This document shows positions 11,741 to 41,867 of a stretch of 46,029 nt of DNA, piece by piece. A model generated the notes under the pieces. It ran no database searches, was not told the origin of the DNA, and was given only the letters and a program-made list of their open reading frames with translations. Location of the stretch: contig NZ_BBAD01000018.1 in the NCBI RefSeq assembly GCF_001311075.1, positions 1 to 46,029 on the forward strand, in the 5' to 3' direction. This DNA comes from Secundilactobacillus similis DSM 23365 = JCM 2765. Lineage in GTDB: Bacteria > Bacillota > Bacilli > Lactobacillales > Lactobacillaceae. Position numbers and translations under genes: made by a program. Numbering within the stretch: position 1 is the first letter of the stretch; each line of letters begins with the position of its first letter.

Positions 11741-11865
11741 GGGACTTTCACAAAGTATTTTTGAGGTTGAGTGAGTGCGCTTACGGCGCCATCGGTTTTC
11801 GGCGTTGCTTTGAGTGATCTGTTTTGTTGATTGGTTGGTTTTGTGATTGATTTTAGTTGTGTGTT

Positions 11866-11998
11866 CTGGCTACCACGCCGAAACGTGTTCCAAGAAGCAG
11901 AGACCTGCACCTAAGGACCACCCACCATAAACCCAAGCCCGGGGTTTATGGTGGGTGGCCCTTAGGCTCCGGTCTTTAGGCGCTTCTTTCCACACTCT
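11866..11998. repeat. Long hairpin element, copy B1
   Basis: Begins with the conserved CTGGCTACCACGCCGAAACG box, then a nested palindrome from 11893 to 11986. The conserved unpaired linkers TGCAC and GCTCC face each other between an outer stem (GAAGC...GCTTC) and a long apical stem with a CCC/GGG tip. Shares this architecture with the elements at 13551, 30256, 30627, 35481 and 41212. The space 11760-11866 has no gene; it contains a diverged copy of the GGCGCC-GTTTTCGGCG motif that also precedes the elements near 40930 and 41120. Confidence 0.8.
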
Positions 11999-12003
11999 GT
12001 ACA

Positions 12004-12201
12004 AAAAAAGACACCCAGGAAAAATCCTAGGTGTCTCAACGGCCACTTAATTGCTTAAATGGGCTCTCAAAAATCCACATTTCCTTTGAGCCAAGGCCTC
12101 CGTATATCCGACGGAGTAAACGGCCTGCCGTGCAAAAAGGTCACCGAGCTGCTTGCGCAGATCACCATTGCTGATGACGTGACATTCTCGACTCATCGCA
12201 T
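12004..12201 (-). ncRNA. Candidate structured ncRNA, possibly 6S-like
   Basis: No protein is encoded here, but a stand-alone transcription unit of about 198 bases is visible: a promoter with -35 TTCACA (12231-12236) and -10 TACGAT (12208-12213), 17 bases apart, and an intrinsic terminator at 12010-12035 followed by seven T. The interior folds into a long irregular hairpin with the tip CTCCGT/ACGGAG, followed outward by AGGC/GCCT, CCTTT/AAAGG and, at the base, weak pairing near the ends. Size and a mostly single long hairpin with a central open region recall 6S RNA, but I see no sequence signature that proves it. An unrelated small RNA is equally possible. Confidence 0.5.
12010..12035 (-). terminator. 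Terminator of candidate ncRNA
   Basis: GACACC-AGGA pairs with TCCT-GGTGTC around an AAAA loop; seven T follow on the minus strand. Confidence 0.85.
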
Positions 12202-13202: not shown

Positions 13203-13352
13203 GTGAAAACTCCTTTATTCACTTCAATCAACTCTCCAGCAGCCCTTATTCGCCACTCGACCAGGTTTCCTGATCATCTCTCAAAATTGTAGCATAGTTC
13301 TTGAAGCGATAGCGTAAAAACAATTAGATTCTTATTTACTTCACATGCTAAC

Positions 13353-13370
13353 GTTTGTGTCCAGCGTAAG
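13353..13370. repeat. Inverted copy of TTACGCTGGACAC repeat
   Basis: TTTGTGTCCAGCGTAAG here is the inverse of the copy at 13653-13679. Together they bracket the 300-base intergenic element region 13350-13680, which contains hairpin B2 and no gene. An apparent reading frame across it lacks a ribosome site and family features. Confidence 0.55.
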
Positions 13371-13527
13371 GGTTGGGTACGATTGGGGTGTTGACTGTTT
13401 GTCGTCGCTTCGCTCGCCAAAGCCGCATAAAAATCAGCGCTCTCAGACTACAAAATTCGGCGTCACTTAAACTGTCATTTCTAGGGTTCCTGAAGTTGTG
13501 AAAACTTGTCAACCACGCGCTTTCTGG

Positions 13528-13650
13528 CCACCACGCCGAATGGTGCTGCGCGAGACTGAGAGCTGCATGCAAGGCGACATCGGTAAAAACGCCAGGCCCG
13601 GGCGCCTTCACCGATGTCGCCTTGCACACTGCTCTCAACCCGTCTCGCTC
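13528..13650. repeat. Long hairpin element, copy B2
   Basis: Starts with CTGGCCACCACGCCGAA (13524-13540 region), then an outer stem CGAGAC...GTCTCG and GAGAGC...GCTCTC enclosing the linkers TGCAT and ACACT, and an apical perfect stem ACCGATGTCGCCTTGC with its complement (13569-13584 with 13609-13624). Same layout as the other B elements but with entirely different stem sequence. Lies between the 3' end of lplA and the small membrane-protein gene. Confidence 0.75.
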
Positions 13651-13684
13651 CGCACACTTACGCTGGACACGAGCGACAGCAAAA

Positions 13685-19529: not shown

Positions 19530-19761
19530 GGGAGTCACCGCCTTTTATTTTTATTGTATCAAGGGGGCATTTGGGGCGGTAGGGATTTGCTTGGTGGGGT
19601 TGGGAAGTTGCGGGATAAGCTGTATGAGACATAAAAGCCATAAGCTCCAAAGTGATTGGTGAGTTAAAAGCACCGCTTTCCGGCTACTGATTTTCGGCTG
19701 GTGGAAGATTATATTTCTTGGGGTTTCTGAAAGATTTTGGGATTGCTTACTTTTGCACCTT

Positions 19762-19894
19762 CTGGCCACCACGCCGAACGCGCGCCAAAACTCAGGCCCC
19801 GGCCATATAAGCCAATCAAAAACGTGAGTCCTGGTCTTGGGACTCACGTTTTTGATTGGCTTATATTCTGGGACCTAACCGAGTTTTATCGCGC
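19762..19894. repeat. Long hairpin element, copy B3 (variant)
   Basis: Begins with CTGGCCACCACGCCGAACGCGC, then a perfect 27-bp inverted repeat (19805-19831 with 19840-19866), enclosed by AAAACTC...GAGTTTT and CGCGC...GCGCG. It carries the same leading box as the other B elements but a different linker. The right base of the element lies two bases from the stop codon of the ABC permease gene. The space 19550-19762 has no gene. Confidence 0.8.
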
Positions 19895-19895
19895 T

Positions 19896-21116
19896 CTACC
19901 GATAACTCAACCCTCTCCTCAACCGATGCCAAAAATTCCCCTCATCGGCCTGCAGGATCAAGCCCTTGTAGATGCGACTGATATACCACACCATCAGGAT
20001 AATGGTTAACGCTAAAATGCCCAACGAAATGGCCACCGCCGTCACGCTCACGTTACCGTTGATCACCCTTAACGGCATGAAGTACGACGAGAAGAACGGC
20101 ACGTACGAGAGCACCTTGACCAACAGCGCATCCGCGTTACTTTGGAATGGGAACGTTGAGAAGAACGCGATCATACTCAAGTACACCGCTGGGTACGCTG
20201 CCTTTGACGCATCCTCCGCCTTCGCCACCAGCGCACCACTAAACGCCGCTAGTACCGTGTAGATGATGACACCTAAGAATAGGAATACTAAGTTCACACT
20301 CACCAGATTATGAACAACCTTGTCAACCAATGTCCCGTACTGGTCAAAGAACGGTTTCGCTGACGACAGTTGCCGCGCAACCGTCAGACTCGCCCAACCA
20401 CCAAGGACGTACACCAGAAGTTGAGTGGCAATGACCAGCAACACGCCCAAGATTTTACCACAGAAGTATTTGGCCGCCGTAGTACTTGAGAAGACGATTT
20501 CCATTACCTTGGTGCCCTTTTCCGACGCAATTTCCTGCGCGGTGATTGACGAGTAGGTCGTCAAAATCATGTATACCATGAAGACTAGGATCCAAAACGA
20601 CGCCATTTTGGCGATTTTGGCTAACCCGGTCTTCTTCTGGACAACTTCTTTGAAGGCAACCCGTTGCTGTAACGTTTGCAGCTGCTTCTTCGATAACTTC
20701 GCCTGCGCAACGTTTTGCTGCGTCTGAAGTTGGGTCAACGCACCGGTTAGCTGGCCCTTTTCGGTTGCATCGAGGCTGTCAGTGCCGTGATAAGTCGCTG
20801 CCAACTGCGTTCCCGACTTCAACACCACGTAACCTTTGATTTTCTCCGCCTTCACCGCTTTTTTAGCCGCAGCAACGGTGGTTACCGACCGCTTAACATC
20901 GCTTTTCGCTGTTTGTTTCAAATACGCTTGGCGCAACGCCGGCTGATCCGCCACCACCGCAATTTGATTACCACTAGACGCTGAATTAGCCGACACTAGA
21001 CCAACACCCAACGAAACGGCCATCATCAGAAATGGTGACAGCACTAAAATCACAAAGCTCCAAGACTTCACTTGGCGAAGATACGTTGTCGCGGTAACGA
21101 TCCATAGTTTTTTCAT
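19896..21116 (-). CDS. ABC transporter permease, NatB-like
   Basis: Membrane subunit of an ABC export system of the ABC-2 type. One N-terminal helix (about 20-40) is followed by a large extracytoplasmic domain rich in Lys, Gln and Ala (about 45-165), then five or six helices (about 170-385), the usual topology of NatB/YhaP-like subunits. 406 residues. Its start codon overlaps the stop of the ATPase gene, so the two subunits are translationally coupled. The substrate is unknown; relatives export sodium or antimicrobial compounds. Hairpin B3 abuts its stop codon and may serve as terminator. Confidence 0.87.
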   Translation of the reverse strand: MKKLWIVTATTYLRQVKSWSFVILVLSPFLMMAVSLGVGLVSANSASSGNQIAVVADQPALRQAYLKQTAKSDVKRSVTTVAAAKKAVKAEKIKGYVVLKSGTQLAATYHGTDSLDATEKGQLTGALTQLQTQQNVAQAKLSKKQLQTLQQRVAFKEVVQKKTGLAKIAKMASFWILVFMVYMILTTYSSITAQEIASEKGTKVMEIVFSSTTAAKYFCGKILGVLLVIATQLLVYVLGGWASLTVARQLSSAKPFFDQYGTLVDKVVHNLVSVNLVFLFLGVIIYTVLAAFSGALVAKAEDASKAAYPAVYLSMIAFFSTFPFQSNADALLVKVLSYVPFFSSYFMPLRVINGNVSVTAVAISLGILALTIILMVWYISRIYKGLILQADEGNFWHRLRRGLSYR

Positions 21117-26145: not shown

Positions 26146-28522
26146 TTACTTAAGTGGTTGCCACTTCCAGTTATTAACTTCTGGTAAGTCGGTCCCGTTT
26201 TCACGAATGTAGGCATTGTGCTTAGCAACCATGTCGTCCATCCGTTGAGCGAAGTAAGCGCCCTTAACCGCGTAGTCAGGAATGCTCAAGACAGCATCCT
26301 TGGCCAAGTGGAACCGGTCGAGTTCGTTCAAGACCCGCATGTCGAATGGTGTGGTGATATCACCGTTTTCACGGTAACCGTGGACGTGCAAGTTGTGGTT
26401 GTGACGATCGAAGAAGATGTCCTTAACTAAGTCTTCGAAGCCGTGGAAGGCAAAGATCACTGGCTTGTCGACAGTGAAGTAACGATCGAATTCATCGTCA
26501 GTTAAGCCACGAGGGTCGTTCTTAGGTGAACGAAGCTTCAAGAGGTCGACCACGTTGATAACCCGAATCTTCATGTCTGGGAATTCGTCGTGTAACAATG
26601 AAACGGCGGCGAAGACTTCCCAAGTTGGTTCACTACCAGCGGCAGCGAAGACGATGTCTGGTTCGGCACCTTGGTCAGTTGAAGCCCAGTCAATGTAGCC
26701 TAACCCGTTGTTAACCAAGTTAGTGGCTTCATCAATTGAGAACCATTGTGGACGTGGGTGCTTTGACGTAACCAGCAAGTTGATCTTTTCGTAACTTGCG
26801 AAGGCCACGTTAGCAACGGCCAACAAGGTGTTGGCGTCACCTGGCAAGTATTCACGGATAAACTCTGGCTTCTTTTCAGCCAAGTGAGTCAGCATCCCTG
26901 GATCTTGGTGGGTGTAGCCGTTATGGTCTTGCTGGAAGACAGTTGACGTATCCACGAAGTTTAATGATGGGTATTGGTTCCGCCATTGTTGTTCAGCGGC
27001 TTTACGCAACCACTTCATGTGTTGGGTCAACATTGAGTCAACGACCCGGCCAAATGATTCATAAGTGGCGAAGAAGCCGTGACGACCAGTGAGGACGTAA
27101 CCTTCCAACCAGCCTTCAGCTTGGTGTTCAGACAATTGAGAATCAATGATCCGACCTTGATGGGCCATGTTTTCGTCATTAGGTTCCTTAATGTCTTCCA
27201 TCCATTGACGCTTACCTTCATCCAAAGCAGCGTACAACCGGTTAGACTTCGTTTCATCAGGACCAAATGCACGGAAATTGTTCGGGTTGAGCTTCATCGC
27301 TTCAGCAACCCATTCAGACCAAACTAACATATCCTGTGCTTGAGTAGCACCTGGGGTCTTAACGTCGATCGCAAATTCCTTGTAATCTGGCAACTTCATT
27401 GGTTCTGGCTTGATCCCACCATTGGTGATTGGGTTCATGGACATCCGTTGGTCACCCTTTGGTGCAAAGGCGCGAACTTCATCCTTGATTGAGCCATCAG
27501 CGTTGAAGAAGTCTTCTGGATGGTATGACTTCAACCAGCTAACCAACTTGTCAGCGTGTTCCATTTCACCAGCGGCAATTGGAAGTGGGACTTGGTGCGC
27601 ACGGAATGAGTTTTCAACGGGGTTACCATCGAAATCACTCTTAGGACCAGTCCAGCCCTTTGGTGAACGGAAGATGATCATTGGCCAGTTAGGCAACGAA
27701 TTGTCGTTGTTTTCGCGAGCGTTCTTTTGAATTGCTTGGATCTTTTCAATAGCGCTGTCCATGGCCTTAGCCATTGCTTCGTGCACTGGCATGTGGTCGT
27801 CTGGATCATCAACTTCAACGAATTCTGGATCCCAGCCCATCCCGGTGAAGTAGTTCTTTAAGTCTTCATCAGACATCCGTGATAGGATCGTTGGGTTCGA
27901 AATCTTGAAGCCGTTCATGTTAATGATTGGTAAAACAGCCCCGTCTTTAATTGTTGATGAACTTATCTGAGAACCATGAAGCCGCTAATGGGCCGGTTTC
28001 AGCTTCACCATCACCAATTTCAACAGCGGCGATGACGTCAGGGTTATCTAAAATTGCACCAGTCCCGTGGGAAAGTGAGTAACCGAGTTCGCCACCTTCG
28101 TGGATTGAACCTGGCGTTTCAGGCGCAGCATGGGAAGCCACACCACCAGGGAATGAGAACTGTTTGAATAACTTCTTCAAACCAGCTTCATCCTGAGTAA
28201 TTGCTGGATAAATTTCTGAGTAGCTGCCATCAAGGTACGAGTTTGAAACCATGACTTGGCCACCGTGACCTGAACCTTCAATGTAGAACATGTTCAGGTT
28301 GTACTTGTTAATGACCCGGTTCAAATGGGCATAAATGAACGTTTGTGAAACGATCGTGCCCCAGTGCCCGATAGGTTTAACCTTTACATCGTCAGAAGTT
28401 AATTCCCGGTTCAACAATGGGTTGTCCCGTAAGAATAGTTGGCCAACTGATAAGTAGTTAGCTGCACGCCAATAAGTGTCAACGCCTTCCAAGTACTGTT
28501 TGGAATCGTAATCTACTGCCAT
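26146..28522 (-). pseudogene. Xylulose-5-phosphate phosphoketolase, one frameshift
   Basis: Central enzyme of heterolactic sugar breakdown: xylulose 5-phosphate plus phosphate gives acetyl phosphate and glyceraldehyde 3-phosphate, with thiamine diphosphate. The N-terminal fragment (28522-27947) has [14 protein letters not shown] and the cofactor-binding [11 protein letters not shown]; the second fragment (27918-26146) contains the remaining domains. One base is lost near 27952: TTCATCAAC followed by AAAGACGGGG needs one more base to read [13 protein letters not shown]. Repaired length is about 792 residues, full length for the family. Very codon-biased, as expected for a highly expressed gene. 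As this enzyme is essential for a heterofermenter on sugars, the frameshift is probably a sequencing error. Start ATG 28522 has an AAAGGAGTG site. Confidence 0.92.
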
Positions 28523-29527: not shown

Positions 29528-30256
29528 ATGAAAGATTTAGTCTACCGAAGAGTGCTACACGATTTGAAAGCACGTATTCACGATAATCAGTTTCCAAACA
29601 AGCGACTACCAGATGAACGAAGCCTAAGTGAAGCATACAACGTTAGCCGCAGTTCAATCAAGCGGGCGTTGAGTGTTTTAGCAAATCAGGGCATTATTTT
29701 CAAAAAACGGGGTTCTGGCACCTTTATTAACCCGCTATATATGAAAAACCAAACGATCTTCCACTATGAAGGGTCGAATCTGGGGGTCACCGATAGTTTT
29801 CAAAGCGACGGTCAGACACAGAGTATCGATCTGTTGTCGTTTCAGGTTGTTCCGGCTTCAGAAGAGATGCAACAGGATCTCTTCTTGGAGAGCGGCGATT
29901 TTGTGTATGAGATCAAACGATTACGTAAGTTTGACGACAAGCCCTTCATGATCGAACGGGGCTTCATTCCGATCAAAATCGCGCCAGAATTGTCACAAAA
30001 GGTGGTTTCAGGCTCAATTTTTAACTACTTAGAAGAAGAGCAAAACAAAGTCGTCACGAAGTCATTCATGACGATGAAGGTGGCCCCTTCTAATGAGGAA
30101 GATCAAAAATTACTGAGCTTAAAACCAAACGAACCGGTTGCCATTATGGAAGGCATCTTCTTCCTGGATGATGGTACCCCGTTTGAGGTGTCCAACATGC
30201 GCTTGCGGTATGATTACTTTAATTATAATACGTTTGTGACGTTGGATGAGGAATAG
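29528..30256 (+). CDS. GntR-family regulator with UTRA domain
   Basis: HutC-subfamily repressor or activator, 242 residues. N-terminal winged helix at residues 1-70 (LPDERSLSEAYNVSRSSIKRAL, then GTFINP), C-terminal UTRA ligand-binding domain from about residue 90 (FVYEIKRLRKF, EGIFFLDDGTPFEVSNMRLRYD). The ligand is probably a small metabolite or sugar phosphate. Start ATG 29528 with CAAGGAGA site; a TGTTATACT extended -10 lies at about 29472. There is no obvious target gene on its strand. The stop codon TAG directly abuts hairpin element B4, whose first bases follow immediately. Confidence 0.9.
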   Translation: MKDLVYRRVLHDLKARIHDNQFPNKRLPDERSLSEAYNVSRSSIKRALSVLANQGIIFKKRGSGTFINPLYMKNQTIFHYEGSNLGVTDSFQSDGQTQSIDLLSFQVVPASEEMQQDLFLESGDFVYEIKRLRKFDDKPFMIERGFIPIKIAPELSQKVVSGSIFNYLEEEQNKVVTKSFMTMKVAPSNEEDQKLLSLKPNEPVAIMEGIFFLDDGTPFEVSNMRLRYDYFNYNTFVTLDEE

Positions 30257-30385
30257 AGCGCGAAGCAAAGCGGTTAGAGACTGGAGCATAAGGCCCCCTC
30301 GCCAGAAATCCCGGGTTTTGGGATTTGTGGTGAGGGGGCCTTATGTGCAAGTCTCTGCTTTGCGTAGCGCATTTCGGCGCAGTTG
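30256..30385. repeat. Long hairpin element, copy B4 (inverted)
   Basis: Outer stem AGCAAAG...CTTTGC and AGAGAC...GTCTCT, linkers GGAGC and GTGCA, long apical stem ATAAGGCCCCCTC with its complement, tip ATCCC/GGGAT. It has the TTTCGGCG box at the far end (30371-30378). The element begins within the stop codon of the GntR gene (TAGAGCGCGAAG), as element B7 does at another gene. The space up to 30600 has no gene. Confidence 0.8.
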
Positions 30386-30626
30386 CCTAAATGCGGTTCC
30401 GTGAGTAATTCTTCTAAATAAACGATAATGCGCCAAACTAAAGTCACATGAGGCGCCGAAACTAACGTAGTAGCAACGCTCGTCGCCACCACCACTCTAC
30501 CAACTTAACAAATCAATCCCCTCAGTGACTAAAAAGTCCATATTGGTAAACATCAAACTCGCTTCTCAACCCAAACCTAATTAAAAATTTTGCTCAAAAC
30601 TATTATCTAGCCTAAACGTGTTCCAA

Positions 30627-30735
30627 GAAGCAGGGAGCTGCACGTAAGGCACTTCCACCACAAACCCCAAAAACCGGGGTTTCTGGTGGAAGTGCCTTAC
30701 GCTCCGCTCCCTAACCGCTTCTTTCCACACTCTCT
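30627..30735. repeat. Long hairpin element, copy B5
   Basis: AGAAGC...GCTTCT outer pair, GGGAGC...GCTCCC second pair, linkers TGCAC and GCTCC, apical stem GTAAGGCACTTCCACCA with its complement, tip ACCCC/GGGGT. Ends with TTTCCACACTCT, like copy B1, so B1 and B5 form a subgroup. Located between the GntR regulator and the 3' end of the HD hydrolase gene. Confidence 0.8.
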
Positions 30736-30739
30736 CTGC

Positions 30740-31408
30740 CTACTTCAACCCATTCCACTCCGCCTTAAAATCTTCCAAAAACGTTGTCATGGTCTTCTGC
30801 CGGTTCTTAGCAATCCGCTTTGCAACCGGGGTGTTCATTTGGTCTGGCAGTTTCAGCAGTTTTTCGTAAAAGTGATTAATAATCGTTTCGTTATCTAAAT
30901 TCCGATATTCCGCCTTCGTCATGTTTTGACGTGGCGCAATCTTGGGGTCATAAATCTTTTCACTGTGATGACCACCATAGTAAATCGCCCGGGTGATCCC
31001 GATGGCGCCAATCGCATCCAAGCGGTCAGCATCCTGCACGATTTGCCCTTCTAACGGTAATGGTTGTTGGTCATCCGTAAGGGATTTGCTAAACGACATG
31101 TTGTTAATGATCAACATGATGGTTTGCACCTGATCAGCCGTAAATTCTAGCGAGGTCAGTAATCGCTCAACGTCCGCTTGCGCATCGGCGACATTGGCCA
31201 CTAACTTGTCGTCGATCACATCGTGGAGGTACGCTGCGCTCAGTGTCAGTAAATAACTTGCAGATGGCTCCTCCGCCAACAGCATCTTGGCGTTCGTAAC
31301 CACCCGGTGAATGTGGTCCAGTCCGTGGCCAGTTTGATCATCGGCTAACTTTTGCGCCGTATAGCTTTCGATTGCCGCTAATTGTTCGGTTGCTTCCAAA
31401 GTGTTCAC
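30740..31408 (-). CDS. HD-domain phosphohydrolase
   Basis: Metal-dependent hydrolase of 222 residues, YpgQ/YedJ-like. The HD motif is complete: HGLDHIHRVV (first His, residue about 28), LSAAYLHDVID (His-Asp, about 67-69) and a later Asp in VQDADRLDAIGAIGITRA. Family members hydrolyse nucleoside or other phosphates; the substrate here is not known. Start is GTG at 31408 with a weak AGAAAG site. Single gene; hairpin element B5 lies four bases after its stop codon and may be its terminator. Confidence 0.88.
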   Translation of the reverse strand: MNTLEATEQLAAIESYTAQKLADDQTGHGLDHIHRVVTNAKMLLAEEPSASYLLTLSAAYLHDVIDDKLVANVADAQADVERLLTSLEFTADQVQTIMLIINNMSFSKSLTDDQQPLPLEGQIVQDADRLDAIGAIGITRAIYYGGHHSEKIYDPKIAPRQNMTKAEYRNLDNETIINHFYEKLLKLPDQMNTPVAKRIAKNRQKTMTTFLEDFKAEWNGLK

Positions 31409-33570: not shown

Positions 33571-35410
33571 CTATTTCGTTTTTAACGCCGCATTCTTAAA
33601 CGTCGTTAACCCAACGTTGGCAGTAGCGAGTTGATTCTTATCCGTTGCCGTGGCCTTAAAGCTAACCTTGTCGCCCGCTTGCACGAACTGGAAGATTGGC
33701 TGGAAGTCCTTAGACGTGGTATCCATCCGGTAAACGTGGCTGTCACCCTTCAGGATAAACAGGATCTGTTTATCATCCGGTTTGACAACCCGTTCAACGG
33801 TGCCAGAAATCGTCTTCCCGGTTACCTTTGGTGCAGCTGTAGCTGTCTTACCGCCGACCCGTTGCTCGAACAGCGCTAACGTGCTACGCGCATCGTCGCC
33901 AACTGCGTAAGAACCGCTTTGGTTGTTACCGTCTGCCAGCAAGTAGACGTATTTCATAAACGAGTTATTATCCCGGTCCAACATGGAGACGACCCAGGTT
34001 GGGTCACCGTTGATCCGGTACAGCAGTGGTAAGGTCCCCTTGTAGTTCTGCGGGTTGATATCCTGTTGCGCGTATGAGATCGCCCGTTCTGGCGTCATCA
34101 CGTTACCGTGTTCGCGGTAGTAGTGCAACGTGTTCGTCCGGGCATCCACGAAGGCGTAGCCAAAATCGAACTTTGGTGACTATTGACACTGGTCATCCCG
34201 GTGAAGTAGTAGATCCGGCCCTTGTAGGCGTATGGCGTTAACTTGTCGCCGCCTTCAGTACCAGCTTCGGTTGCTTCATCACATCGTTATGACCGCCAAA
34301 ACTGGTGGCATTCCAGAACCCGTGACGGTATTTACCAAACATCGTCACTTCGTCTGAAACCAACTCAGGCGTGGCCGCAACGTCCACGAACTTCGGTACT
34401 TTGTTTGGTGAGTAAACTTTCACCTTACCCGTGATCGTGTTCAACACCGCAACCTTGTAGTGCTTAAAGTCGTAGTTGCGGTTGAAATACGACAGTGGTT
34501 TCGCCAACGTCCGAACGTAGTATGGCGTCCCGTTATTGTCGACTTCCAACTGCGACGTCTTGCCCACCATGGTGTAGCCCATACTGCGGGCGCTGATTCG
34601 ACGATCGGCATCCATGTTGAAGTACGCACTTGGCGTATAGCGCATTGGCTTCGAGACGAACTTCGGATCCGCGTTCTTATCCGTCGCGTTCGTCATGAAG
34701 TACCCTGGCACCTTTTGGTAGTGAATGTAGCGCCAGAAACCGCCGGAGAACTCAACGGGCGCCACGTAAACCATCTTGCCCTTGTACATCTGAACCCGCA
34801 TGTGGTTCAAATCGTAAACGTTGGAGTTCTTAAAGCTGTTCAGTGAGTTGTTCATATCGGTGGACACCGTTTGCGGGGCGTTCACAACGGGCGTTTCCGC
34901 GCTGTCCTTAATGACCGGCATTGGTGCGCCCTTCGTACTGTTGTTCATTTCCGTTTTAATGGAATTAACCGCCGGCGTTGGGTTCATCTGAGTGATAACT
35001 GCTGAAATACTGCCAAGAACCATCAACACAACGATCGCCCCAACGGCAGCCCCTAACAGTTTGCCTAACCACCCAACGGTCAGACCAAAGCGCTGGAAGA
35101 ACCGGGCGAAGATGTTATCTTCACTTTCGGCCCGGGCTTCCACCGCACCCTTGTTGAAAACAAATTTGCGTAAAACGGCAACGAGCACTAGTCCACCGAT
35201 CAGCCACATCAACCAGCCATCGATCATGGCCGGATAAGCCAGATCAGGCAAGTTAAAGTAGGTGTTCACATAACTGACGATAAACAGTGCAACAACGGCC
35301 AGCGTCCCCCAAAGACGCCAGCGTTTGGTACTCACGATCAGGAACCAAACAAACGGGATCAACAACCCCGAAAGTTTGACCAACGTGATTAACGCAAAAT
35401 AGCTCAGCAT
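33571..35410 (-). pseudogene. Large membrane-anchored protein, two frameshifts
   Basis: Not recognised. The N-terminal 130 residues have four hydrophobic helices with a charged cytoplasmic loop; a helix at about 120-142 leads to an extracytoplasmic region of about 480 residues with many Tyr, Lys and Asn and short beta-like repeats. The C-terminal end looks like an OB-fold-like domain (GKTISGTVERVV...VSFKATATDK). Two one-base deletions split it: near 34245 (AAGGGCGGCGAC expected) and near 34185; repaired, the junction reads GGDKLTPYAYKGRIYYFTGMTSVN...PKFDFGYAFVDARTN in outline. Repaired length is about 614 residues. Divergent from the ClC gene. Probably a cell-envelope protein; no function can be named. 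Confidence 0.75.
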
Positions 35411-35479
35411 ATAACGTCGCTCCTCTTTTCAAACCCCAAACTTTTGTATGTTGGAGAGTTGCTGGGTTCTATTATAACA

Positions 35480-35608
35480 GAGCGCGAAGCAAAACGGGTT
35501 GAAGTCGGAGCGTAAGGGCCTTCCTACATAAAGTCATGAACCTCGACTTTATGTAGGAAGGCCCTTACGTGCAGACTTCAGTTTTGCTTCGCGCGTTTCG
35601 GCGTGGCG
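35480..35608. repeat. Long hairpin element, copy B6 (inverted)
   Basis: GCGAAGCAAAAC...GTTTTGCTTCGC outer stem, GAAGTC...GACTTC second stem, linkers GGAGC and GTGCA, and a perfect apical stem of over 20 bp (35512-35534 with 35544-35566). The GTTTCGGCGTGGC box closes the far end. Lies in the divergent space between the membrane-protein gene and the ClC gene, where it could not be a simple 3' terminator of either. The rest of 35411-36035 has no gene. Confidence 0.8.
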
Positions 35609-36035
35609 GCCTTAAAACATCCCCGTTAACAATCCCACCACGAGGACGATTCGCGAAACATATCAGTCAACACTTAGTCGAAACCAACGTAGTAGTTACC
35701 TACTATCTCAAGTGAACTGCCAATGCTACACAACTCAATTACAATGACACCATTTAAAGATTATCTTAGTGCATCACATCCAGTCGAGTGCCACTCTCGC
35801 ACCAAAAGCCAGGCTTATCCTAACAGAGAAACTAGCTTGATATATCAATCATCTGGGAACCACAAATGGCTTTTATATGCTCAAATACAAGTTCGAGCCA
35901 GTCAAAAACGACCCCAACAATCACGCAACCTCCCCATCAACCATTCCGAATTCAAGTTGAATCTCACCGCCAACCGTGCTACCTTATTTTAGGTGGAAAA
36001 GTCCACATATCAGAATAAGAGGGAAATTGAATTAT

Positions 36036-37296
36036 ATGACAAAGACACGTGAAAGACTCATGCTGAGCATTTCAACCGTTGTGCTTGGCTTAATTGCCGG
36101 TTTAGGATCACTCATTCTAGCCAACTTTTTAGATATCATTGAAAAACTCTTTTTAAATTTTAACGAAACACCCCTGAGTCCGTTTGCGGCCAACGCTAGC
36201 GGCACTCGGCGATTAGTATCCATGGTGATTGGTGGCGTCATTGCGGCCATTGTGTGGTACTACATGCGAACCAAAATGAAGCCTACCGTTAGCATCGCTA
36301 AAGCGCTAGATGGCGAAACCATGCCGGTGTGGACGACTGCGGTTCACGTTTTCACCCAAATTTTCTTCGTCGCTACGGGCGGGTCAGTTGGCCGCGAATT
36401 GGCGCCACGAGAATTTGGAGCCATGCTATCACAAACGTGGCAACGATTTTTACAGCATTTCGGGATCACCTTTGATGAAGAGGACCGTAAGCTATTGATT
36501 GCAGCGGCTGCGGGGGCTGGCTTTGCGGCCATCTACATCGCACCGTTGACCGGGACCATGTTTGCTATCGAACTATTGTATAAAAAAGTCACTGGTAGAG
36601 CCGTCGCCGTGAGTCTCACCATGTCATCCGTTGCGATGTTAGTCGGGTCCACCTTGCGTGGTTTTCATCCGTACTACGCTGTGGGTAACGGTGACTTCTC
36701 ACCAATTTCAGTGGTGTTAGTCATTGTTGTTGGGCCATTGTGTGGCGTTGTCGGCGCCTACTTCCGCCGCTTCTTCCAATGGGCAAACAAGCACCAAGCT
36801 CGTGACCGTTCAATTCTGTGGTTACTGCCTGCTGCAGCCGTGTTAACCGGCGCGATTGCGTACTTCTATCCTGAAATTTCAGGTAATGGTCGCGCCCTGG
36901 CACAGCCGGCGATGACGAATCAGTCAGCTGGCTTGATCGGCATCTTCTTAATTGGTGGACTTGCTAAAGCCCTGGTCACTGTGTTCTCGTTAAGGGCCGG
37001 TGCCTCTGGTGGGACACTAACCCCTTCAATTGCCATTGGGGCCACGATTGGGATGAGTTTGGGCGTTGTCGCCCACATGTTGATCCCCGGCATCACGATT
37101 TGGCAAGGTGGCTTAATCGGCGCTGCAACGCTGCTAGCTAGCTCACAACAGGCGCCATTTATGGCACTGTTCATGATTTTTGAAGTCTGCCATCTCGATT
37201 ACTCAGCTCCTGCCATTAGGACTGGGTGTGGCACTAGCCAGTGCTTCGTCACAACTGGTGTTGCATCAGTCGAAGAAACCGCAACAACAACGATAA
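36036..37296 (+). pseudogene. ClC-family chloride channel/transporter, one frameshift
   Basis: Voltage-gated chloride channel family membrane protein, about 420 residues with many helices. Motifs seen: GGSVGRELAPREFGA (the GREGP-like selectivity segment), AAAAGAGFAAIYIAPLTGTMFAIELL, and GASGGTLTPSIAIGA. The start at 36036 has an AGAGGGA site; a TTG-like start at 35976 is unsupported. At the C-terminus a GC dinucleotide appears lost near 37206 (TCAGCGCTCCTG expected): the other frame gives a proper last helix, LLPLGLGVALASASSQLVL, and stops at 37296, while the frame as read runs to 37322 with an unlikely sequence. Role in anion or fluoride movement and acid tolerance is known for the family; the substrate is unknown here. 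Confidence 0.85.
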
Positions 37297-37327
37297 TAGG
37301 CGCACCAAAACTCAGATCCTAGACTAT

Positions 37328-40862: not shown

Positions 40863-41290
40863 CTATTTAACTTGGCTGACTGCTGGCTTGCGACGTGCTT
40901 TACTACTACATTGTTTTCGGCGCCATTGGAACTTCTATTTTCCGCTTACCAACTCAATTATGAAGTTTGTCTGCGTTAGTTTATTCTGGCAGCCACGCCG
41001 AAACGCACTCCGCAAGGCAGCGACCTGCACATAAGCCCCTTTCACCACAACCCCCAAAAAACCGGGGATCACCGTTTAACTTAGCTAACTGCTGACTTGC
41101 GACGTGCTTTACTACTACATAGTTTTCGGCGCTATTGAAACTTTTGTTTTCCGCTTACCAATTCAATTATGAAGTTTGTCAGCGTTAGTGCGTTCTGGCA
41201 ACCACGCCGAAACGCGCTCCGCAAGGCAGAGACCTGCACATAAGCCCCTCTCACCACAAACCCCAAAACCGGGGTTTCTGGCAAGAGGGC
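40863..41290. repeat. Imperfect tandem duplication of about 210 bases
   Basis: Unit 1 (about 40863-41070) and unit 2 (about 41071-41290) share the sequence TTTAACTT-GCT, GACTTGCGACGTGCTTTACTA-type blocks, the TTTTCGGCGC box, and the start of a B-type hairpin (CCACGCCGAAACGC, AAGGCAG, CCTGCACATAAGCCCCT). Unit 1 stops at the hairpin tip (CCGGGG at 41064-41069) and lacks the second half. No gene lies in it. Confidence 0.75.
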
Positions 41291-41325
41291 TTATGCTCCG
41301 GTCTCTAAACGCCTTGCTCCGCGCT
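41191..41325. repeat. Long hairpin element, copy B7
   Basis: CTGGCAACCACGCCGAAACG box, outer stem CGC/GCG and AAGGC/GCCTT, GAGAC/GTCTC, linkers TGCAC and GCTCC, apical stem ATAAGCCC/GGGCTTAT with tip AACCCC/GGGGTT. Its end (AGAGCGCG on the minus strand) directly follows the TAG stop codon of the hexulose-phosphate isomerase gene, like element B4 at the GntR gene. Confidence 0.8.
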
Positions 41326-41867
41326 CTACTCCATATTACTATGCTCCGCCGCCGCACTATCATTCGACACATGATCCCGCCGGCTAAGCATCAAGCACAA
41401 AATGTCCAACGTTACGTGGACGCTTTGGTCAAACAACGTGCTTAATAGTTGAATGGATTTGACTCCATCGCCCGCCTTGGTTGCGCCTGGGACCACGATG
41501 GTTGCGTCGCCCAGTTGGCCTAATGGGGATTGGGCGTTGCTCGTCACACTAACGACCGTGACGCCGTTTGCCTTGGCCTTTTCTGCTAATTCCACGATGC
41601 TGGCCGTTTTACCTGAGCCCGAAACGGCCACTAAAACGTCGCCCGCTTGGACAGATGGCGTGATGGTTTCGCCAATCGCAAATACCGTATAGCAATGTGC
41701 ATTAACCGCATTGCGAAGCCCTTCGCCATTAAGCCTGAGCGACCTGCGCCCAGCACGAAGATCCGCTTGTCCTTTTGGATCAGTGCTTCCGCTTGGCTCA
41801 ATTGTGCTTCGTCCACTTTACCCATTACTTCGTTGATTTCACCTAAAACTTGGTCAATTACTGTCAT
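41326..41867 (-). pseudogene. 6-phospho-3-hexuloisomerase (SIS domain), one frameshift
   Basis: Interconverts 3-hexulose 6-phosphate and fructose 6-phosphate. SIS fold: FVLGAGRSGLMAKGFAMRLMH (residues about 36-56), then VAVSGSGKTASIVELAEKAK, VVSVTSNAQSPLGQ. One base is lost near 41693 (CACATTGGCTATACG expected, CACATTGCTATACG seen); repaired, it reads MHIGYTVFAIGETITPSV, typical of the family. About 180 residues, normal length. The start codon is one base after the end of the synthase-like gene with a GAGGT site inside that gene. Last gene of the operon. Element B7 abuts the stop codon. Confidence 0.88.

Follow-up and report, generated by a model that had tools for sequence, protein, structure and literature searches.

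Long dispersed hairpins, often placed at stop codons, in Secundilactobacillus similis and other Lactobacillaceae: candidate structured elements of mRNA 3' untranslated regions

The hairpins scattered over a 46,029-nucleotide stretch of S. similis DNA (the window) are best interpreted as dispersed structured RNA elements that reside in the mRNA 3' untranslated regions of Lactobacillaceae and have spread as a small mobile sequence. We give this reading a probability of about one half; the action as RNA is the part that we infer. The copies follow one structural plan with one selected strand, lie in sense orientation at stop codons, recur at orthologous stops, have discrete edges and are present in high copy number.

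Sequences and alignments

The assembly, labelled G000, comprises 3.45 Mb in 176 contigs (completeness 93%, contamination 7%), and its contig 18 is the window. Other Secundilactobacillus genomes are labelled G002-G006, G008 and G010-G014; L with a number denotes a fetched locus. When a 6-kb query was compared with 14 other Secundilactobacillus genomes, the best-matching stretches were mostly 72-81% identical, and one window protein had relatives in S. silagincola, S. pentosiphilus and S. mixtipabuli with 71-73% identity.

A covariance model (R1) was built from 23 hairpin copies. The best 150 of its 334 matches in fetched stretches formed alignment A2; many of the lower-ranked matches beyond A2 were the reverse strand of the same palindromes. 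A2 was split into 110 non-E copies and 40 copies of a subfamily, E, which was kept apart in orientation counts. Copies having no 5'-side gene in the fetched stretch (6 of the 110 non-E and 2 of the 40 E copies) were excluded from these counts. Open reading frames were called by a simple longest-ORF rule, with at least 100 codons for the gene-context count, and because of this rule single ORF calls may be wrong.

Copies in the window

Covariance-model search found seven full copies (B1-B7), and one half copy proved real as well; this is the same set that had been listed in an earlier, sequence-only reading of this DNA. That reading was silent on the strand of B4 and B6: the box lies on the + strand in B1, B2, B3, B5 and B7, and B4 and B6 sit on the opposite strand. 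The features are as follows (strands are functional strands unless stated otherwise).

11770-11880 (end approximate), −: tail of B1, with TTTCGGC/GCCGAAA boxes
11864-11999, −: B1 hairpin, R1 match, beginning directly behind the T-run of a terminator-like hairpin
13352-13675, no strand assigned: 324-bp MITE (subfamily E) of which B2 is part, terminal inverted repeat CGTTTGTGTCCAGCGTAAG
13522-13659, box strand +: B2 hairpin inside the MITE, R1 match
19760-19898, −: B3 hairpin, which with its first bases supplies the AG in the TAG stop of ORF 19896-21116 (−)
30254-30391, +: B4 hairpin; gene 29528-30256 (GntR/UTRA) stops at a TAG that consists of T plus the hairpin's first bases AG
30366-30488, +: tail of B4, including the last hairpin bases
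30597-30734, −: B5 hairpin; the TAG stop of ORF 30740-31408 (−) begins 8 nt before it
35478-35615, +: B6 hairpin, in the space that separates the divergent genes 34238-35410 (−) and 35976-37322 (+)
40887-41070, −: half copy, made up of the tail and of the 3' arm starting at the apical loop; a tandem unit on the downstream side of B7
41099-41205, −: tail of B7, ending in AAAGCACGTCGCAAG
41193-41328, −: B7 hairpin, at a TAG stop with offset 0

Four copies (B3, B4, B5 and B7) are thus stop-codon copies. The exceptions are B1, which has no stop codon at its start and follows the terminator-like hairpin, B2 in its MITE, and B6 in the divergent space, where the functional strand is sense to the downstream ClC-like gene. 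Read along the box strand, the half copy, near 40985, runs as far as the apical loop, and the left part of B7 comes after it. Just below 40887 another half copy, this one decayed, was noticed, and an IS110-family transposase gene (NF033542; 39277-40554, −) adjoins the half copy and B7, with no link shown. Elsewhere in the window the phosphoketolase ORF (26146-27918 / 27947-28522, −) lacks about 200 N-terminal model positions, which the preceding ORF may hold; the split possibly reflects a frameshift or an assembly error.

A box common to all copies had been proposed. It proved exact (CCACGCCGAAACG) in B1, B6, B7 and the half copy, with variants in B2-B5. Likewise, the proposed unpaired TGCAC facing GCTCC stood in B1 and B4-B7 and failed in B2 (TGCAT/CACTG) and B3 (CCGGCC/TTCTGG), whose loops belong to the same small set of matched pairs.

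The sole Rfam 15 match at gathering score in the window was Ref68 (12070-12200, −, 85.1 bits), and no family matched the hairpin; the B1 stretch alone gave sub-gathering matches, mostly to microRNA families. Lacto-3 RNA is another name of Ref68, which is sited apart from the hairpins; the terminator-like hairpin preceding B1 lies between the two, downstream of the Ref68 match. The motifs 'Lacto-1/2/3' reportedly appear in work by Tseng et al. from 2009.

Structure, loops and extent of the element

The genome of G000 contains at least 150 R1 copies, and the box CCACGCCGAA occurs 119 times in it, compared with 7 occurrences of the reversed control. On the mRNA strand the element reads: stop codon, AGAG, an outer stem with 14 positions, GGTT or GTTT as a 4-nt bulge on the 5' side, second stem of 7 bp, matched internal loop, apical stem of about 26 bp with a short loop, CGTTTCGGC and a species-specific tail. 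Standard pairs fill 95.0% of the cells of A2. Its covariation score was 0.738 (shuffles 0.211, slid structures 0.08-0.12), and two-sided changes were found at 42 of the 44 pairs. Together with the kept loops, these results support the proposal made from the window alone that selection acts on pairing and on the linkers, not on stem letters.

The linkers do not form the single fixed code that had been suggested. Several matched loop sets exist and differ between species at one orthologous site. Among the 110 non-E copies, read on the functional strand, the internal loop was GGAG/TGCA in 62, GGCG/CATA in 22, AGAA/TGGCC in 9 and GAAA/TGCA in 5. The two sides are tied: GGAG goes with TGCA in 62 of 63 cases and GGCG with CATA in 22 of 23. 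CAGTA or CAGGA opposite GGAG is frequent in G002, G006 and G011 and absent from the 110 non-E copies of G000. The internal loop is therefore a code with several words that changes as a unit. The bulge was GGTT or GTTT in 84 of the 110. At two loci of relatives (L206 and L212) the copy was paired across the place of the internal loop, as arm-to-arm copying would yield.

The element has sharp borders. In the best 45 of 306 non-E pairs with at least 80% identity, 36 alignments begin between −7 and +3 of the hairpin start, and most alignments end either around 135-143, which takes in the hairpin and the box, or around 230-276, which takes in the tail too. The tail, overlooked before, extends the element by about 100-120 nt past the hairpin. 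Its pattern was matched in 45 of the 110 non-E copies, and in 44 of them the extracted stretch, including the last hairpin bases, measured 120-124 nt (consensus CGTTTCGGCGyGGTGGCC ... GCGCCGAAAACAACGTAnnAGCAATGCACGTCGCCA). The sole helix in the fold of the tail, TTTCGGC/GCCGAAA, was invariant in 39 rows save two U-G cells; being near-invariant, it proves nothing about pairing in the tail. Several copies are followed by tandem 5'-truncated units that start near the apical loop. Such units could arise if a replicating strand stalled in the loop and slipped back to the tail.

The selected strand

A neutral palindrome, or one whose arms are copied from each other, should contain equal numbers of G·U and A·C among its imperfect pairs. 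These pairs were counted on the complement of the strand used in the sequence-only reading. The ratio G·U:A·C was 137:22 in the 110 non-E copies of G000 and 68:3 in the 40 subfamily-E copies. Since related rows make the counts partly dependent, they were checked on a representative set (80 non-E copies of G000, 88:14) and on a second species set (63 copies from 13 other Secundilactobacillus genomes, 127:16). After the four columns richest in such cells had been dropped, the 110 non-E copies still gave 73:22. On the strand assumed earlier A·C cells exceed G·U. The skew means that pairing is guarded in a single strand, and wobble asymmetry and gene context together show that the strand had been chosen wrongly: the functional single strand is its complement, which usually matches the mRNA.

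In three of the four wobble-rich columns the commonest pair was A-U, which suggests that cytosine deamination by itself does not account for the skew. Subfamily E, although found in both orientations, is skewed as well, and part of the wobble signal therefore belongs to the element itself. Because G·T counts as a mild mismatch in single-stranded DNA too, wobble alone is compatible with a folded DNA intermediate.

Gene context and stop codons

Non-E copies were sense to the 5'-side gene in 83 of 104 cases and antisense in 21, and subfamily E showed no bias (20 of 38 sense). The 5' ORF ended at the hairpin start, from 24 nt inside to 6 nt before, in 56 of the 83 sense non-E copies and in 0 of the 20 sense E copies. 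That many copies start at a stop codon had been overlooked. The most frequent form was T/AG, the slash marking the hairpin start. The adjacent stop was TAG in 49 of the 56, against a background of 174 of 559 ORFs of the same loci, although part of this excess arises by construction, the element supplying AG in T/AGAG. The exact T/AGAG form with an open frame of at least 80 codons was found in 32 of the 150 aligned copies. The base preceding AGAG in the 110 non-E copies was T in 60, C in 20, G in 17 and A in 13, and since it varies, TAG is no fixed tag. One further copy (L024, 2458-2598, in contig C9 of G000) appeared by eye to begin at the 3' CCA end of a tRNA gene.

The proteins ending at T/AG were examined for completeness. 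Six of the 20 scanned match their family model to its last or last-but-one position and continue for 0-4 residues past the match: PRK05313 (452/452), YchF (368/368), acetoin reductase (257/257), MTHFR (274/275), the 3H domain (97/97) and TenA (209/210). LtaS and RNase Y extend 60 and 14 residues past the model. For 8 of the 20 the matched Pfam domains leave the length unsettled, and when 10 of the 20 were scanned with NCBIfam, 4 had no match at 1e-30. The product of the gene ending at B3 (406 aa) aligned over its full length with 7 of 9 relatives; with the other 2 the alignment reached residue 404.

Orthologous stops and spread of the family

Nine genes that end at an element, out of 14 prepared, were followed into seven Secundilactobacillus genomes by means of their last 300 nt. 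The DNA after the stop was read in 50 loci, which include 20 of the 30 matches that lay outside the stretches fetched before. Occupancy varied with the gene. A hairpin was present at the stop in 7/7 loci of YchF, 5/6 of acetoin reductase, 5/6 of MTHFR and 2/3 of PRK05313 (one shortened), and in 2/7 of RNase Y (one degenerate, 32.6 bits), 1/5 read of LtaS, 0/2 read of 3H, 1/7 of GntR (with masked bases) plus one remnant, and 1/7 of TenA plus one locus (L225) in which the frame runs into the element. At the stop orthologous to that at B3, examined in nine relatives, G003 had a hairpin of the same plan (50.5 bits) and G002 an apparently shortened one by eye; no hairpin was recognised in the remaining seven.

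A survey of ychF in 41 genomes yielded 30 loci, half of them from Secundilactobacillus. The stop hairpin was present in 12 of the 15 Secundilactobacillus loci and in none of the 15 other genomes read. Of the exceptions, G011 has a remnant, and G008 and G014, with 6 and 2 R1 matches genome-wide, are empty, their intergenic DNA being diverged. No close relative offers a clean pair of empty and filled sites for reading a target-site duplication. In the 15 genomes outside the genus the downstream reading frame is usually close (by eye); three of the genomes without the ychF hairpin (G016, G017 and G024) carry the family elsewhere. The stops at the 12 sites are TAG in 7, TAA in 4 and TGA in 1, and the hairpins differ between species in both stem letters and loop sets.

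At lplA, read in genomes other than G002, G003 and G006, six species carry hairpins directly at the stop codon, and in G012 a remnant is left. Wherever the sequence was read far enough, an ordinary terminator was seen by eye beyond the hairpins of these relatives; in G000 lplA is followed by its own terminator and then by the MITE copy. Two loci from different genera (L110, 8370-8504; L160, 1501-1637) carry a hairpin at the stop of genes that are 75% identical across the 299 nt up to the stop.

With strict filters and a cut-off of E<=1e-5, R1 matches occurred in 67 of the 151 Lactobacillaceae genomes searched, a count that includes G000, and represented 22 of 40 genera. At E<=0.001, among 60 genomes, matches were found in 15 of 15 Secundilactobacillus (with G000) and in 8 of 22 other members of the family; of 23 genomes from the rest of the order, 2 matched with weak scores. 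The search for a phage source gave no phage match, and four box-motif matches in viral contigs were without a hairpin match in the stretch examined. Two plasmid queries had no match, and a third gave three weak partial matches to Secundilactobacillus and Levilactobacillus plasmids. On plasmids of S. paracollinoides and L. brevis (L152 and L181) weak partial similarity to the hairpin lies beside an MFS transporter gene, and the region in L152 folds as a long stem. Among the 60 of 214 flank-similarity matches listed, none represented a clean empty site inside G000.

Subfamily E and candidate mobility partners

Subfamily E is a 324-bp MITE that carries the hairpin, is inserted in random orientation and often lies beside T-runs; that B2 belongs to this separate element had been missed. 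Its terminal inverted repeats formed 23 repeat pairs 300-349 bp apart in the fetched loci, the window copy included; the spacing of the 22 outside the window was 323-335 bp. No terminal repeats were noticed in the other 110 aligned copies. Three stretches with terminal repeats 700-910 bp apart were inspected by eye for an autonomous partner and contained no convincing transposase ORF; a fourth repeat pair is 3,173 bp apart.

A REP-type transposase had been suggested as a partner. The Y1 transposase domain PF01797 has one match in G000 and is absent from G002-G006, G010 and G013, each of which has at least 48-54 R1 matches. Mobilisation of the REP/RAYT kind was rejected on the absence of this enzyme from these seven element-rich genomes of the genus, and a REP short palindrome with a conserved tetranucleotide tag was rejected too, the hairpin model being about 138 nt long and TAG unfixed. 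A retroelement or retron was dismissed as well: the reverse transcriptase domain PF00078 has one match each in G000, G002 and G012 and is absent from 12 of the 14 other genomes of the genus. Neither Y1 transposases nor reverse transcriptases track the copy number of the element.

Discussion

Gene context suggests that the element would act as RNA on the mRNA 3' end, directly after the stop codon. Its likeliest role would be that of a stability or processing structure. It might protect the 3' end of the coding sequence, for example as a barrier to 3'→5' exonucleases, or the bulge and the internal loop might define a site for a double-strand RNase or a binding protein. The family may have spread as a small mobile sequence and been retained at some sites. 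Occasional arm-to-arm copying could supply new stem letters, while selection on the RNA would purge A·C mismatches and preserve the loops. Several points tell against this reading, since transcription is deduced from context, 21 of 104 non-E copies are antisense, orthologous presence is patchy, and B1 and B6 are placed away from stops.

The same copies might instead be selfish mobile DNA of the MITE or REP type, whose folded strand is read by an enzyme and whose insertions survive mainly just after stops, with no host role. This is possible though clearly less probable than a function in the mRNA. It would account for the discrete edges in 36 of the best 45 of 306 non-E pairs, for the tandem truncated copies, for the MITE form of subfamily E with its terminal repeats and for the patchy occupation of many orthologous stops. 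However, stop adjacency to the base and the strong sense bias are hard to obtain from survival alone, because an antisense hairpin folds alike; occupancy of ychF in 12 of 15 species with pairing kept, and a copy number that follows neither candidate enzyme, also speak against it. A mobile RNA-structured element with the stop codon itself as landing site (T/AG, sense) appears unlikely. If insertion, not survival, set the placement, some factor linked to translation termination or to the end of the mRNA would have to direct it, and the differing loops and tails at the same stop would then represent replacement or renewed insertion there. Rather unlikely, too, is that pairing is a property of the DNA only, one arm templating the other in replication and perfecting the palindrome with no selection on RNA. 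Such a process predicts what alignment A1 shows, namely that 40 of the 44 pairs have two-sided changes with few one-sided intermediates, and it predicts copies such as L206 and L212, but it treats G·T and A·C alike, in conflict with the ratios of 88:14 and 127:16, and it would erase the bulge and the internal loop, both of which the great majority of copies keep.

Two further explanations concern the mRNA itself. Long intrinsic terminators would also come after stop codons, the stem of the G003 hairpin at the B3 site runs into ATTTT, and terminator-like sites downstream were somewhat rarer for element genes (21 of 58) than for controls (57 of 120; p=0.20). Yet those 21 sites mean that the hairpin often precedes a terminator, as it does at lplA in relatives, and in the G000 consensus CGTTTCGGC follows the hairpin instead of a U-tract. 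For want of a U-tract directly after the stem this candidate was rejected, and we regard it as very improbable. The claim that simple termination is insufficient, made originally from the position of B6 in divergent space, is supported. A recoding or readthrough signal resembling SECIS or PYLIS would explain a long hairpin at once after UAG, but all three stops occur at orthologous ychF sites, the proteins that can be judged end at the normal place, and the next stop in frame comes 21 nt into the element in 24 of 53 copies; we consider this explanation barely credible.

If it acts as proposed, an important group of bacteria from food and the gut would possess a very abundant family of structured RNA, and apparently an undescribed one: no Rfam family matches it, and no description of it was found in the open literature searched. 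It offers hundreds of natural variants of one fold with varying stem letters, many of them fixed at the stops of known genes, with which the effects of a post-stop hairpin on termination, mRNA 3' ends and decay can be tested. The loop sets that differ at the orthologous ychF site amount to a natural experiment in the recognition of non-canonical internal loops.

Relation to known systems

Integron attC sites and RNase III signals entered the comparison by analogy only. REP/BIME sequences with RAYT share with them dispersed palindromes in extragenic DNA, sometimes clustered, but the excerpted text of PMC3733652 gives 20-40 bp for REPs, and the hairpin is much longer, has no established GTAG/CGTC tag and occurs in seven element-rich genomes from which the Y1 transposase is absent. 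The stop-proximal stem-loops of low-GC Firmicutes are, in the excerpts of PMC1590033, mostly AT-rich and terminator-like, whereas the hairpins described here are without a U-tract and have one plan and conserved linkers in common.

The nearest precedents are YPAL, ERIC and NEMIS. These families probably conserve primary sequence more. The portions of PMC2229807 drawn upon describe YPAL/RU-2, ERIC/RU-1 and Correia/NEMIS as small mobile hairpin sequences transcribed with their neighbours; NEMIS RNA was proposed to be an RNase III substrate, and ERIC and YPAL were proposed to influence the stability of upstream transcripts. Like them (PMC2229807), the present elements measure about 100-200 bp, are intergenic and would form a long stem-loop in a transcript, transcription here being deduced from gene context. 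Unlike them, as far as those portions describe the three families, they combine widely variable stem letters with matched loop sets, start at stop codons in many copies and occupy some sites that are shared across a genus.
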